Positions 5,088-26,779 of a DNA stretch of 32,606 nucleotides are shown here, in pieces. Location: assembly GCA_020628305.1 (NCBI GenBank), contig JAHDFH010000019.1, forward strand, positions 1-32,606. The letters are read 5' to 3'. Under the pieces are notes generated by a model that saw only the letters and a program-made list of their open reading frames with translations, was not told the DNA's origin and did no database searches. The position numbers and the translations under genes were made by a program. The first letter of the stretch is position 1, and every line of letters begins with the position of its first letter. The DNA comes from Acidimicrobiales bacterium (GTDB lineage Bacteria > Actinomycetota > Acidimicrobiia > Acidimicrobiales > SZUA-35).

Positions 5088-5462
5088 ATGAAAAAAGCGG
5101 AGGCAACCATTACCCCATCAGAGCTACTAGATTCAGACGTTTCTGCATCACTCGCATATATCTCAGTTGATAGCGACATGTATAGTGCAACCGAGACTGA
5201 ACAAATGCTCGATGACCTTACCCTCAACCAGGGCATCCAAGTGCTGACGAAAGAAATGCTGCAAGATTGGCTCTGGGAGGAGGTTCCAACGAAGATGCGG
5301 GGCTTGGATCATCAGTTCCCGGCGATTGCTGCGAAACTTATGTCAAACCTCTTCGACGATCTCGAACTGTATGAATACGCTGAAGTATGTCGATCAGAAA
5401 GAACCAAGACAATCCTTAACGCCCTGACTCATGAGCGACACGACAGTCAAGAGCAGCAATGA
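5088..5462 (+). CDS. Hypothetical protein, 124 aa
   Basis: Acidic soluble protein of unknown family. The ORF track starts at TTG 5070, but ATG 5088 (MKKAEATITPSELL) is the better start: it follows an extended -10-like TGCGATGAT by 6 nt. No signal peptide or membrane segment. Tryptophan and acidic residues cluster in LQDWLWEEVPTKMRGLDHQFP. Its stop codon overlaps an in-frame ATG of the upstream-extended antitoxin ORF by ATGA. However, the antitoxin has its own promoter at 5527-5554, so the overlap is probably accidental and this gene need not belong to the toxin-antitoxin operon. Confidence 0.65.
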   Translation: MKKAEATITPSELLDSDVSASLAYISVDSDMYSATETEQMLDDLTLNQGIQVLTKEMLQDWLWEEVPTKMRGLDHQFPAIAAKLMSNLFDDLELYEYAEVCRSERTKTILNALTHERHDSQEQQ

Positions 5463-5508
5463 AAGTAGGGATCGCTCTAAAGAAAGGCGTTCAATCTGCC
5501 GTTACTAC

Positions 5509-5533
5509 CACTGCAAGCACTTTGCTTGCAGTG
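5509..5533. promoter_or_regulatory. Palindromic operator of the toxin-antitoxin operon
   Basis: Perfect inverted repeat of 10 bp arms, CACTGCAAGC-ACTTT-GCTTGCAGTG. It overlaps the -35 hexamer of the antitoxin promoter. RHH antitoxins of the FitA/VapB group bind such palindromes to repress their own operon, so this is the expected autoregulatory site. Confidence 0.75.
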
Positions 5534-5554
5534 CACCCAGATAGCATCTATAGT
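5527..5554 (+). promoter_or_regulatory. Toxin-antitoxin promoter
   Basis: -35 TTGCAG (5527-5532), 16-bp spacer, -10 TATAGT (5549-5554). The antitoxin ATG at 5561 is 6 nt downstream, predicting a leaderless mRNA. The -35 lies inside the right arm of the palindrome. Confidence 0.65.
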
Positions 5555-5560
5555 AGAAAT

Positions 5561-5791
5561 ATGAACAAAACACTACAGGTTCGAGACGTTCCAGAAGCAA
5601 CTCACAATAAACTTCGCTCTCGCGCTGGTGCTAGTGGGAAGTCATTGTCTCAATATGTCCTAGAACTATTGAACCGTTCCGCATCCACTCCCACTGTTGA
5701 AGAAGTACTTGATCAAGCCTCAAAACGACCTATCAACGTATCTGAACCATCAGTTGTCGATGCGATTCGCTCTAGACGAGATCTTGAGTGA
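5561..5791 (+). CDS. Ribbon-helix-helix antitoxin, FitA/VapB type
   Basis: 76-aa antitoxin. The N-terminal half MNKTLQVRDVPEATHNKL plus SLSQYVLELL is a ribbon-helix-helix DNA-binding fold of the FitA type, which dimerises on palindromic operators. The C-terminal tail (residues about 45-76, ending VVDAIRSRRDLE) is the flexible toxin-blocking part. The ORF track extends 34 codons upstream to 5459, but promoter and operator lie inside that extension and the RHH fold begins at ATG 5561, so this start is much better. The toxin gene follows 9 bp after the stop. Confidence 0.88.
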   Translation: MNKTLQVRDVPEATHNKLRSRAGASGKSLSQYVLELLNRSASTPTVEEVLDQASKRPINVSEPSVVDAIRSRRDLE

Positions 5792-5800
5792 ATTGCACCA

Positions 5801-6187
5801 ATGACAGTAGTCGACACATCAGCTCTTGTTCTCGCTTTAGCTGATCCAACACATAAAGCTGCGGAACATCTTGTCAAGAGTGAAGCTTTACACGCCCCAC
5901 ACCTAATTGATATTGAATTCCTTCATGTAACACGTAAGCTTTGGTTGAAGAACGAGATTAGCGAAGACCAAGCCAGCCAGCTTCTTATCAGTCTGTCAGA
6001 CGTGCCTATTACGAGGCATCAACACTTACCACTTAACCAGCGCATTTGGCAGCACCGTCACAACCTCACTCCTCACGATGCCAGCTTCGTGGTCCTGGCA
6101 GAGGTTCTAGAGTGCCCCCTCCTCACAGCCGATCGAAAAATGGCCGAATCGCCGGGCTGCGATAGTGTCGAATTCATTTTGGTCTGA
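5801..6187 (+). CDS. vapC: PIN-domain toxin, VapC family
   Basis: 128-aa PIN-domain ribonuclease, the toxin of the pair. All four acidic metal ligands are visible: D5 in VVDTSA, Glu in DIEFLHVTRKL (about residue 46), Asp in TPHDASFVVLAE (about 98) and Asp in LLTADRKMA (about 116). VapC toxins cleave tRNA or rRNA and are held inactive by their RHH antitoxin. The intact active site suggests a working toxin. Length is typical. It is downstream of and co-transcribed with the antitoxin; no obvious terminator follows for about 160 bp. Confidence 0.9.
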   Translation: MTVVDTSALVLALADPTHKAAEHLVKSEALHAPHLIDIEFLHVTRKLWLKNEISEDQASQLLISLSDVPITRHQHLPLNQRIWQHRHNLTPHDASFVVLAEVLECPLLTADRKMAESPGCDSVEFILV

Positions 6188-8950: not shown

Positions 8951-9318
8951 TTGGTTTGGTCGAAAGTTTCAGCATTGACTAATTTAAAAGCGGAGATAGT
9001 GCTGCGTTCAAGGAGCTCTTTGACAGGCACAGTCCGCTTATTCTTGGTTTATCTAGAAAACTTGTCGGCGCCGATGCCGAAGACCTTCTCCAAACAGTCT
9101 TTTTATCCGCCTGGCGTAATCGTTCACAGTATGATCCGTCTCGTGGCTCTATCAAGTCGTGGCTTTGTGGAATAACCCGGTTTAGAGCCATCGCCTTACT
9201 TCGCCAAAGGGCCTCTAAACCATTCAAGGCAGCAACGACACAAGTCGAAATTGGCATGTTAGCAGTTGGTGATCTTTCTGTAGCTGGCTCCACCTCGCTC
9301 AACGGGTCCACCTCTTGA
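8951..9318 (+). pseudogene. ECF sigma factor relic (region 2 only)
   Basis: Frame 8989-9318 reads SGDSAAFKELFDRHSPLI, then DAEDLLQTVFLSAWRN, then RGSIKSWLCGITRFRAIALL: region 2 of an ECF sigma-70 factor (core-polymerase and -10 binding). The expected N-terminal lead-in (VSALTNLK) is in another frame (8951-8989). One extra A in the AAAA run at 8986-8989 would restore TNLK-SGDSAAF, so there is a 1-nt frameshift. Region 4 (-35 recognition) is absent: after LLRQRASKPFKAATTQ the frame runs into sequence that looks like an anti-sigma factor and stops at 9316. The gene is inactive. Confidence 0.8.
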
Positions 9319-9559
9319 AGTCACAACAGACATACTGCATGAGCTACAAGACGAGTTCTATGAAGTCTGGTTGTTGGATACCAATGACGCCGGCGCAGTT
9401 GAAGCACTTCAATCACTTGGCAGACTCTCGACTAACGGAACTTATACAGTGCATGACGACATTGACACCCGGCAGTACTCGGTGGTTGACATATCTTTAG
9501 AACCTAACGACAGTGACGACACCCACTCTGGCAATAGCCTCTTACGGGGCGGTTTCTAG
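9284..9559 (+). pseudogene. RskA-type anti-sigma factor relic (C-terminal domain)
   Basis: Frame 9284-9559 has EFYEVWLLDTNDAGAVEALQ, LGRLSTNGTYTVHDD, TRQYSVVDISLEP and a final HSGNSLLRGG. These are the extracytoplasmic C-terminal motifs of RskA-family anti-sigma factors (YEVWLxD, VVDISLEP, HSGxSxLRG). The zinc-binding N-terminal domain and membrane helix are missing. The sigma-factor frame (VAGSTSLNGSTS) appears to continue the same domain up to about 9312, where a frameshift intervenes. A deletion thus joined the front of a sigma gene to the back of its anti-sigma partner. The last bases overlap the convergent DUF4153 gene. Confidence 0.78.
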
Positions 9560-13837: not shown

Positions 13838-13892
13838 ATAGGCAGATTCTACGCTGACGAGGAACCATTCGGACCTGTCCCCGGTGGTTCAT

Positions 13893-14072
13893 TTAGTGGA
13901 GTGCGCGAGTGGCGAAGAAGGCTGCGTTCATCATAAAGATGCCAAGTAGCAGGGTGCGATATTCTTTGGGGGCCTTACGGGCTGCAAAGGCGATAACTAG
14001 CCAGATACCGGCAGCGGCAGCCCACTGGATGAACACCGCTTGGTCTGTGGTTGGATAGAAAAAATCACGCAT
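13893..14072 (-). CDS. Small membrane protein, 59 aa
   Basis: Two hydrophobic segments (AVFIQWAAAAGIWLVIAFAA and LLLGIFMMNAAFFAT) joined by a basic loop ARKAPKEYR, so the loop should face the cytoplasm. ATG 14072 is preferred to the ORF-track TTG, although neither has a good ribosome site. No family recognised. It lies upstream of the nitroreductase in the same direction. Confidence 0.5.
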   Translation of the reverse strand: MRDFFYPTTDQAVFIQWAAAAGIWLVIAFAARKAPKEYRTLLLGIFMMNAAFFATRALH

Positions 14073-14158
14073 AGAAAAGACCGAGACCAATCACTTTGTC
14101 TTGTTATCCAACACGCCAAGTCTGTCTCTGATTCCCTCCACCAAGAATTGACCTAAAC

Positions 14159-14290
14159 CTAGCGCCTACGTGTTCGAACTACGTTTCGACCCAGTAGAGA
14201 CACCGATGGCAGCGGCCTGCGTCCCATCTGAGTTGAACCTGGTCTTGGTTTCCTACCGGGCCCAAGCGGGCGCCTTCTTCTCGATCTCAT
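14159..14290 (-). CDS. Possible Arg-rich 43-aa peptide
   Basis: ORF MRSRRRRPLGPGRK... with 14 or so arginines and a GGGGGAA sequence a few bases before the ATG. Very basic mini-proteins of this kind include accessory ribosomal proteins in actinobacteria, but I recognise no match. Another frame over the same bases also looks protein-like, so this may be chance. Confidence 0.2.
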   Translation of the reverse strand: MRSRRRRPLGPGRKPRPGSTQMGRRPLPSVSLLGRNVVRTRRR

Positions 14291-14373
14291 TGCTTCCCCC
14301 ACTGAGTTTTGCGGAACTCTTAATGTAGCAACTAGAAACAGTCCATGCCATCAATAGCTAAAGTCAGCGCAGA

Positions 14374-14502
14374 CTAACCAACAAAGGTCGTCGAGCTGGA
14401 TGGTGTAATGATCACTGGATCTTCATCTCTTGAATCAAGATACGCAAAGAACAGATTGATGGCGACGATCGCAAGCACCACATATCTAAGAATTTTGAGC
14501 TT
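14374..14502 (-). pseudogene. Single-span mini-protein, start lost by 1 nt
   Basis: Open frame of 42 codons reading KLKILRYVVLAIVAINLFFA then YLDSRDEDPVIITPSSS, a credible one-helix membrane protein with an acidic tail. It has no ATG in frame. The upstream ORF stop is in the string AAATGAAAGCTC: removing one A gives ATG-AAG-CTC, an ATGA-overlapping start in the correct frame. A GTG at 14481 could be an alternative start giving 35 aa. Confidence 0.35.
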
Positions 14503-14604
14503 TCATTTGGCTTTAGGCGAACCGTTGCGAGCAGCATCACCCAACTCTCTCGCAGCCCAAGCCCCAGGGGCTGTGTATTGAACTGATTCATCCCAGTCGT
14601 TCAT
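14503..14604 (-). CDS. Possible 33-aa protein
   Basis: Starts MNDWDESVQYTAPGAWAA and ends GDAARNGSPKAK. A GAGAG sequence lies 6-10 nt upstream of the ATG. The longer ORF-track version (from 14733) crosses a GAGCTC-GGC-GAGCTC palindrome and looks less like protein. The stop overlaps the start region of the next mini-ORF. Confidence 0.35.
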   Translation of the reverse strand: MNDWDESVQYTAPGAWAARELGDAARNGSPKAK

Positions 14605-14913
14605 AAGATTCTCTCGCCTTGATAGACGATTTGGTTGGTAAAAAACGGATTTAACGAGCTCGGCGAGCTCTCCAAGTACGTATCCCAGACTCCACGGGAA
14701 CAGGGGCTTGTCCAGTTGTGGGAAGTGGATCAATCGCTCTTGCTAGCTGCCGAATGCCTCGACTATTACTCTGAGGCCTCCCAAGTCCAGTCTTGAACGC
14801 CTTTGTACCGTTTCTTCTGCCCAATGCTCTCTCCTTCGCCACGCAGGTATTCAAGCTAGCCGCTTAACCCACCGAATATCAACTAGAAGGCATGTAGTAA
14901 AGTACTTATAGCA
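14605..14913. other. Intergenic region, about 300 bp
   Basis: No gene I can support. It contains the perfect palindrome GAGCTCGGCGAGCTC near 14658-14672, with a run of A (T on the minus strand) nearby, possibly a minus-strand terminator, and TAAAGT/TACTTA promoter-like boxes just before the dehydratase. Confidence 0.4.
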
Positions 14914-25223: not shown

Positions 25224-25577
25224 ATGAAATACCTACTACTACTTGCAAGTGACCCTGCCGTGGGTCCTCAAACAGATGAGGAGTTAGCTGCAGAGATGCC
25301 AAAGTGGGCGGCACTAACTGAAGAGATGGCTAAAGCCGGAGTGCTACAGGGAGGGGAAGCTCTTCAACCACCAGCCACTGCTACCACCATTCAAGTTCGC
25401 AATGGGGAACGCGTAATTTCAGACGGCCCGTATGCAGAAACTAAGGAAGTTCTAGGCGGTTTCTATCTTATTGAAACAGATAATCTTGATGAGGCACTCG
25501 AGTGGGCGGCCAAAATACCCTCTGCTATCTACGGATCGGTCGAGGTTCGACCTGTATGGGACATTCCCACCACATAG
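25224..25577 (+). CDS. YCII-related DGPF-domain protein
   Basis: 117 aa. MKYLLLLASDPA opens the ferredoxin-like YCII fold; ISDGPYAETKEVLGGFYLIE carries the DGPF/DGPYxExKE signature. The protein belongs to the group genetically paired with ECF42 sigma factors in actinobacteria, where it is thought to affect or sense for the sigma factor; the mechanism is not settled. Good AGAGGA ribosome site. Its stop is 8 bp before the sigma gene. Confidence 0.9.
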   Translation: MKYLLLLASDPAVGPQTDEELAAEMPKWAALTEEMAKAGVLQGGEALQPPATATTIQVRNGERVISDGPYAETKEVLGGFYLIETDNLDEALEWAAKIPSAIYGSVEVRPVWDIPTT

Positions 25578-25585
25578 GCCAATCA

Positions 25586-26779
25586 ATGGATATTGCTGAA
25601 GTCTTTGCTAATGAATGGCACAAAATCGTTGCTACCGTCAGCAGAGATTTCGGCGATATCGAACTTGCCGAGGACGCCGCCCAAACAGCTTTCTCCAAAG
25701 CACACAGACTTTGGAGAAGTGGGCTACCCAAAAATCCTGGTGCTTGGCTTACCACAACTGCCCGCAACTATGCCATTGATACCGTGCGGCGATCTAAAAA
25801 CTATTCAGACAAACTTGCTCTGATGAGAGACCAACCAGGCCCTGACGAAGCAAATGAGCTTCTTGACCCTCAATTATCGCTGTTACTTACGTGTTGCCAC
25901 CCGGCCCTAAACCTAGAATCCCAAGTAGCACTGACTCTTAGGCTCGTTGGAGGGTTAACGACCGACCAGATTGCGTCCGCCTTCAGGGTTGACTCCCCAA
26001 CAATGGGTAAGCGATTAACAAGAGCTAAAAACAAGATAAAAGCAGCGGGCATTTCTGTCGACTCAGCCACTCACGAAACATTGCTTGAGCGTGTCGAATC
26101 AATCAGAAATGTCATCTACCTAATCTTCAACGAGGGTTATGCGAGCAACTCAACTAACGAACTCATCAGAGGATCCCTTTGCGACGAGGCACTGTGGTTC
26201 GCTCAGCTTCTCTGCCAGCTAGATCCAGGAGTGAACGAGAATTACGGCCTCCAAGCACTTGTTGCCTTTAATGATTCTCGCAGAAACGCACGCACAGACC
26301 GTGAGGGTCTTCCGGTGCTCTTGGAAGATCAAGACAGAACACTGTGGAACCCAGAAAAAATTGGGCAAGGCGAATCGTGCCTGAGACACTTAAACCGTCA
26401 ACAGCCGTTCGGACCCTACAGTTTGCAGTCGCTGATCTCTTATGAGCATGTCGCTGCAATGTCATTCGAAGATACGAATTGGCAGACAATCTACGATCTT
26501 TACACCCTGCTATTGACTATCGAGCCAAATCCCATAATTCAACTAAATCAGTACGTCGCTCTCAGCTATCTCGAAAACACGCTTGGCGTACTAGACAAGG
26601 TTGAGTTACTAGAAACCGAACTCTCTGACTATCTGTATTGGCATACAACGAAAGCTCAACTTTTTGCTAGAGCTGGCCAGGTCGGCAAAGCAGTCGAGTG
26701 CTACCAAAACGCAGTGGCCCTAACCAGCTCAGAGAGTGAGCACCGATGGATCCGGCGACAGATCGACAAAATGACCTAG
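25586..26779 (+). CDS. ECF42-type RNA polymerase sigma factor
   Basis: 397 aa from ATG 25586; the ORF-track start lies inside the DGPF gene. Sigma region 2: VFANEWHKIVATVSRDFGD, AEDAAQTAFSKAH and PGAWLTTTARNYAIDTVRR. Region 4: QVALTLRLVGGLTTDQIASA and PTMGKRLTRAKNKIK. Unlike ordinary ECF factors (about 190 aa) it has a long C-terminal extension (about 165-397) with NVIYLIFNEGY and helical repeat-like segments (AGQVGKAVECYQNAV), as in the ECF42/DUF6596 group, where this part is essential for activity. No anti-sigma gene is adjacent, as usual in this group. It contrasts with the dead ECF gene at 8951. Confidence 0.92.
   Translation: MDIAEVFANEWHKIVATVSRDFGDIELAEDAAQTAFSKAHRLWRSGLPKNPGAWLTTTARNYAIDTVRRSKNYSDKLALMRDQPGPDEANELLDPQLSLLLTCCHPALNLESQVALTLRLVGGLTTDQIASAFRVDSPTMGKRLTRAKNKIKAAGISVDSATHETLLERVESIRNVIYLIFNEGYASNSTNELIRGSLCDEALWFAQLLCQLDPGVNENYGLQALVAFNDSRRNARTDREGLPVLLEDQDRTLWNPEKIGQGESCLRHLNRQQPFGPYSLQSLISYEHVAAMSFEDTNWQTIYDLYTLLLTIEPNPIIQLNQYVALSYLENTLGVLDKVELLETELSDYLYWHTTKAQLFARAGQVGKAVECYQNAVALTSSESEHRWIRRQIDKMT

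Follow-up and report, generated by a model that had tools for sequence, protein, structure and literature searches.

Probable pseudogene of an ECF sigma factor and RskA-like anti-sigma factor pair in an Acidimicrobiales genome

The locus at 8951-9559 of the window (the whole stretch of 32,606 nucleotides that we analysed) is, with a probability of about 93%, a pseudogene of a two-gene regulatory unit: an ECF sigma factor and its RskA-like anti-sigma factor. A preliminary description had read it as a collapsed sigma/anti-sigma pair, and this reading holds, as both pieces match their domain profiles and the pair occurs in most relatives of the family. Compared with its intact homologues, the locus is disabled by a deletion, a stop codon and a frame shift.

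Anatomy of the remnant

The pieces follow each other on the plus strand:

8980-8982, plus strand: in-frame TAA stop, directly 5' of sigma region 2 (reading frames)
8983-9222, plus strand: remnant of the ECF sigma factor gene, region 2 (PF04542, E = 1.6e-16; 48 of 77 residues identical to the intact congener G001)
9223-9240, plus strand: approximate deletion junction (gap relative to intact pairs, net about 0.5-0.8 kb)
9241-9312, plus strand: putative anti-sigma segment just outside the membrane, sharing the frame of sigma region 2 (ungapped alignment)
9313-9318, plus strand: single reading-frame shift (the sigma frame reaches TGA at 9316)
9314-9559, plus strand: remnant of the RskA-like anti-sigma outer domain (PF10099, E = 5.3e-7)

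The match to Sigma70 region 2 (PF04542), which identifies the ECF sigma factor, spans 9016-9213 and is read in the plus frame of phase 8632. The RskA_C match (PF10099), which identifies the RskA-like partner, lies at 9347-9532 in the plus frame of phase 8630 and covers the second half of the domain only (profile positions 73-133 of 135). Both are well above chance. The anti-sigma remnant is closed by a stop of its own (9557-9559), which overlaps the end of the convergent DUF4153 gene. No sigma-70-like plus-strand promoter, Rfam family or tRNA bearing on the region was found at the locus.

The deletion is apparent from the spacing of two motifs. The WL motif of region 2 and the E[VL]W motif of RskA lie 202 nt apart at this locus. 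In 14 intact pairs the distance is 703-973 nt; in G001 it is 853 nt, which makes the remnant about 650 nt shorter. The net loss of 0.5-0.8 kb comprises the sigma linker, region 4, the cytoplasmic sigma-binding part of the anti-sigma factor and its membrane helix. In the sigma reading frame the locus has no match to PF08281 (region 4), which intact relatives do have. The cytoplasmic part and the membrane helix are absent from the locus and were not found elsewhere in the assembly. A genome-wide profile search gave no second RskA_C match, and the full-length G001 anti-sigma factor detects nothing else above noise in the genome (next best E 0.11).

The preliminary description had thus correctly listed region 4 and the membrane helix as missing; the zinc domain that it added to them does not belong there. 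The H-x3-C-x2-C motif of the zinc-binding anti-sigma (ZAS) domain is absent from the locus and from the intact anti-sigma partners at all 15 loci read in detail, and therefore no zinc domain was lost here. The three intact partners that were scanned contain RskA_C and have no zinc-finger Pfam match.

The reading frame is kept across the deletion junction, and the sigma frame leads into the anti-sigma segment that follows the membrane. Translated in this frame, 9241-9312 reads QVEIGMLAVGDLSVAGSTSLNGST, and an ungapped alignment places this peptide on the segment that follows the membrane helix in intact partners (10 of 24 residues identical to the relative at locus L162). Its averaged ungapped score is matched by 1 of 5000 shuffles, and the two other frames score negative. 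A short-profile hmmsearch of the same segment gave no signal (-0.4 bits, with 962 of 2000 shuffles equally good), which we attribute to its shortness; the gapless comparison is better suited to a segment of this size. Of the whole anatomy, this join is the least secure.

Beyond the shift near 9313, the translation realigns with the intact partners up to the E[VL]W motif. Since the sigma piece stays in frame across the deletion, this is the one frame shift that can be demonstrated, out of two previously proposed; the other lesion is the in-frame TAA at 8980, which occupies the position of a residue in intact sigma factors. The next in-frame ATG, GTG or TTG is found at 9256, leaving region 2 without an ordinary start. 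An N-terminal frameshift could be present instead of the TAA, or besides it, because the N-terminus of the sigma factor is poorly conserved.

Intact pairs and genomic sites in related genomes

Of 39 genomes in the family, 31 (including that of the window) contain a relative of the RskA fragment, with an ECF sigma gene just upstream at every locus long enough to show it. At the 15 relative loci read in detail, the anti-sigma gene is always open and the sigma gene is complete in 14, the exception (L174) being interrupted by unknown residues. With genes called by longest open frames, the two overlap by 4-20 nt in 12 of 14 measured loci.

The pair of the congener G001 (C5:467904-469326, locus L080) encodes the same two proteins as the remnant, with 62% identity in region 2 and 43-45% (29/67) in the outer domain. 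Unlike the remnant, the G001 pair is complete, its genes overlapping by 17 nt. It is located downstream of sortase and DUF4397 genes, whereas the remnant lies between EamA and DUF4153. No remnant of these sortase and DUF4397 neighbours was found in the window. Adjacent DUF4397 and sortase genes resembling them (26% and 39%) occur on contig 110, away from the broken pair (locus L180, G000:C110, 6354-8753).

The family's usual site is a different one. Of the 15 loci, 11 have a class II DAHP synthase gene close by, in most cases convergent with the anti-sigma gene; in 9 loci a group sigma factor gene follows on its far side, and VWA_CoxE and AAA (MoxR-like) genes lie 5' of the sigma gene in at least 7 of 15. 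The domain names of these neighbours are taken from locus L165, and the remaining loci were assigned by similarity. The genome studied here has its VWA gene on contig 95 and its DAHP synthase gene on contig 99; no traces of a sigma/anti-sigma pair were found beside either. The G001 pair is likewise away from the DAHP synthase and VWA-AAA site.

A search for intact orthologues between the EamA and DUF4153 genes of related genomes had been suggested, and none was found. The DUF4153 loci of relatives, inspected with 1.5 kb flanks (6 kb in G001), have neither the pair nor an EamA gene nearby. The EamA/DUF4153 site is therefore particular to this species, a statement that covers three genomes of the genus.

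Alternative readings and age of the loss

The locus could also be a pseudogene of another history, the pair having been acquired horizontally, perhaps already broken, without ever being the ancestral circuit of the lineage. We consider this unlikely. Its site does differ from the usual one of the family, and the anti-sigma piece is 43% identical to G001 and up to 58% to other genera; yet the joined-block tree pairs the window with its congener G001 (split support 85), and the G001 pair has left the usual site too. An artefact of assembly or of the population, with a collapsed contig or mixed strains hiding an intact locus, is more improbable still. The genome is a draft of 132 contigs, 95% complete, but more than one error would be needed to give a single locus the stop, the frame shift and the deletion; moreover, the missing anti-sigma part was found on no separate fragment of the genome, and no RskA_C match was found elsewhere.

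Hardly any weight falls on a new fusion protein, in which region 2 and the outer domain would be joined through readthrough at 8980 and frameshifting near 9313. The in-frame junction and the good conservation of both pieces agree with such a protein; against it, two separate recoding events would be required, no start codon occurs between the stop and 9256, and the product would have neither a membrane helix for its outer domain nor region 4. The chance that the same stop readthrough and frameshifting yield a short regulatory peptide from this fusion is just as slight.

How long ago the pair broke can be approached from the drift of its pieces. When the pieces are scored against intact relatives by leave-one-out, the RskA piece comes 6th of 16 and has 0 of 12 invariant positions broken; the sigma piece comes 13th of 15 and has 2 of 15 invariant positions broken. 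In the joined-block tree, the branch of the window measures 0.42, against 0.50 for the intact G001. With so little coding drift, and a branch not longer than that of G001, the loss appears recent relative to the split from G001, as had been suggested before; it cannot be dated in absolute terms. Two pieces so nearly normal in conservation would also be expected under continuing constraint, though a product from the locus is unlikely, given its lesions.

The lost unit and the remaining ECF factors

In the favoured reading, that of a broken two-gene unit, the ancestor would have carried an ECF sigma gene overlapping the gene of a membrane-anchored, zinc-free, RskA-like anti-sigma factor. Some 0.5-0.8 kb would then have been deleted, so that sigma region 2 runs at its end into the beginning of the anti-sigma outer domain, and the in-frame stop and the frame shift would further block translation of the pieces. 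Judging from these lesions, neither product is presumably made, so that the pair would no longer control its regulon. With both partners broken, control would be lost rather than the regulon being left constantly active.

The closest known arrangement is SigK/RskA of Mycobacterium tuberculosis (ECF18/19 groups), where the ECF sigma gene is also followed by that of a membrane anti-sigma factor. As in the intact relatives, the outer domain of this partner is RskA_C and a zinc motif is not required; M. tuberculosis RskA does not rely on one (PMC7406223). The sigma factor does not qualify as SigK by the NCBIfam model PRK09646.1, however: the intact congener protein reaches 98.5 bits, far under the cut-off of 226. 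In a PDB sequence search with the intact sigma factor, the nearest solved structures are SigE of Rhodobacter and SigK; the intact anti-sigma factor gave no meaningful match. By analogy with SigK/RskA, the intact unit most likely worked through a membrane protein that would control the sigma factor until an envelope signal frees it. The RskA architecture makes a role in envelope stress plausible.

Naturally damaged sigma/RskA pairs have been described before: rskA is truncated in the majority of Nocardia and carries mutations in M. bovis and M. orygis, and the sigma factor survives in all of them (PMC7509140). In Nocardia and M. bovis, sigK is kept and only rskA altered, whereas both genes are broken in the window. 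The loss probably belongs to genome reduction in this lineage, the genome measuring 2.36 Mb against 2.8-6.9 Mb in the other genera of the family. It would be a further clear example of a reduced genome that has lost an ECF sigma factor and its anti-sigma factor together, caught early, while the order of the pieces is still readable. The lineage could dispense with this regulatory unit, and ideas on how such circuits work stay unchanged.

The genome retains more than the single ECF42-type factor implied in the preliminary description. Among 13 region-2 matches genome-wide, six belong to ECF-type proteins in which region 4 is present as well; these lie on contigs 126, 45, 121, 85 and 111 and in the window at 25637-26038. 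Four of the six adjoin candidate anti-sigma genes: two lie next to small proteins with zinc-finger matches, one above and one below the Pfam cut-off, and two next to proteins that are predicted to have one membrane helix and match no named domain. In the window (25224-26779), a short gene that reads as DGPF/YCII-like by translation is directly 5' of the ECF42-like sigma gene, whose protein is matched in regions 2 and 4.

Two other parts of the window deserve mention. About 1 kb at 13890-14910, between nitroreductase-like and threonine dehydratase-like genes, is without a long open frame; of the several short frames on its minus strand two are hydrophobic, and the stretch may encode small membrane proteins or be a further decayed gene. 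At 5459-6187, two adjacent small genes read, by translation only, like an antitoxin and a PIN-domain (VapC-like) toxin.
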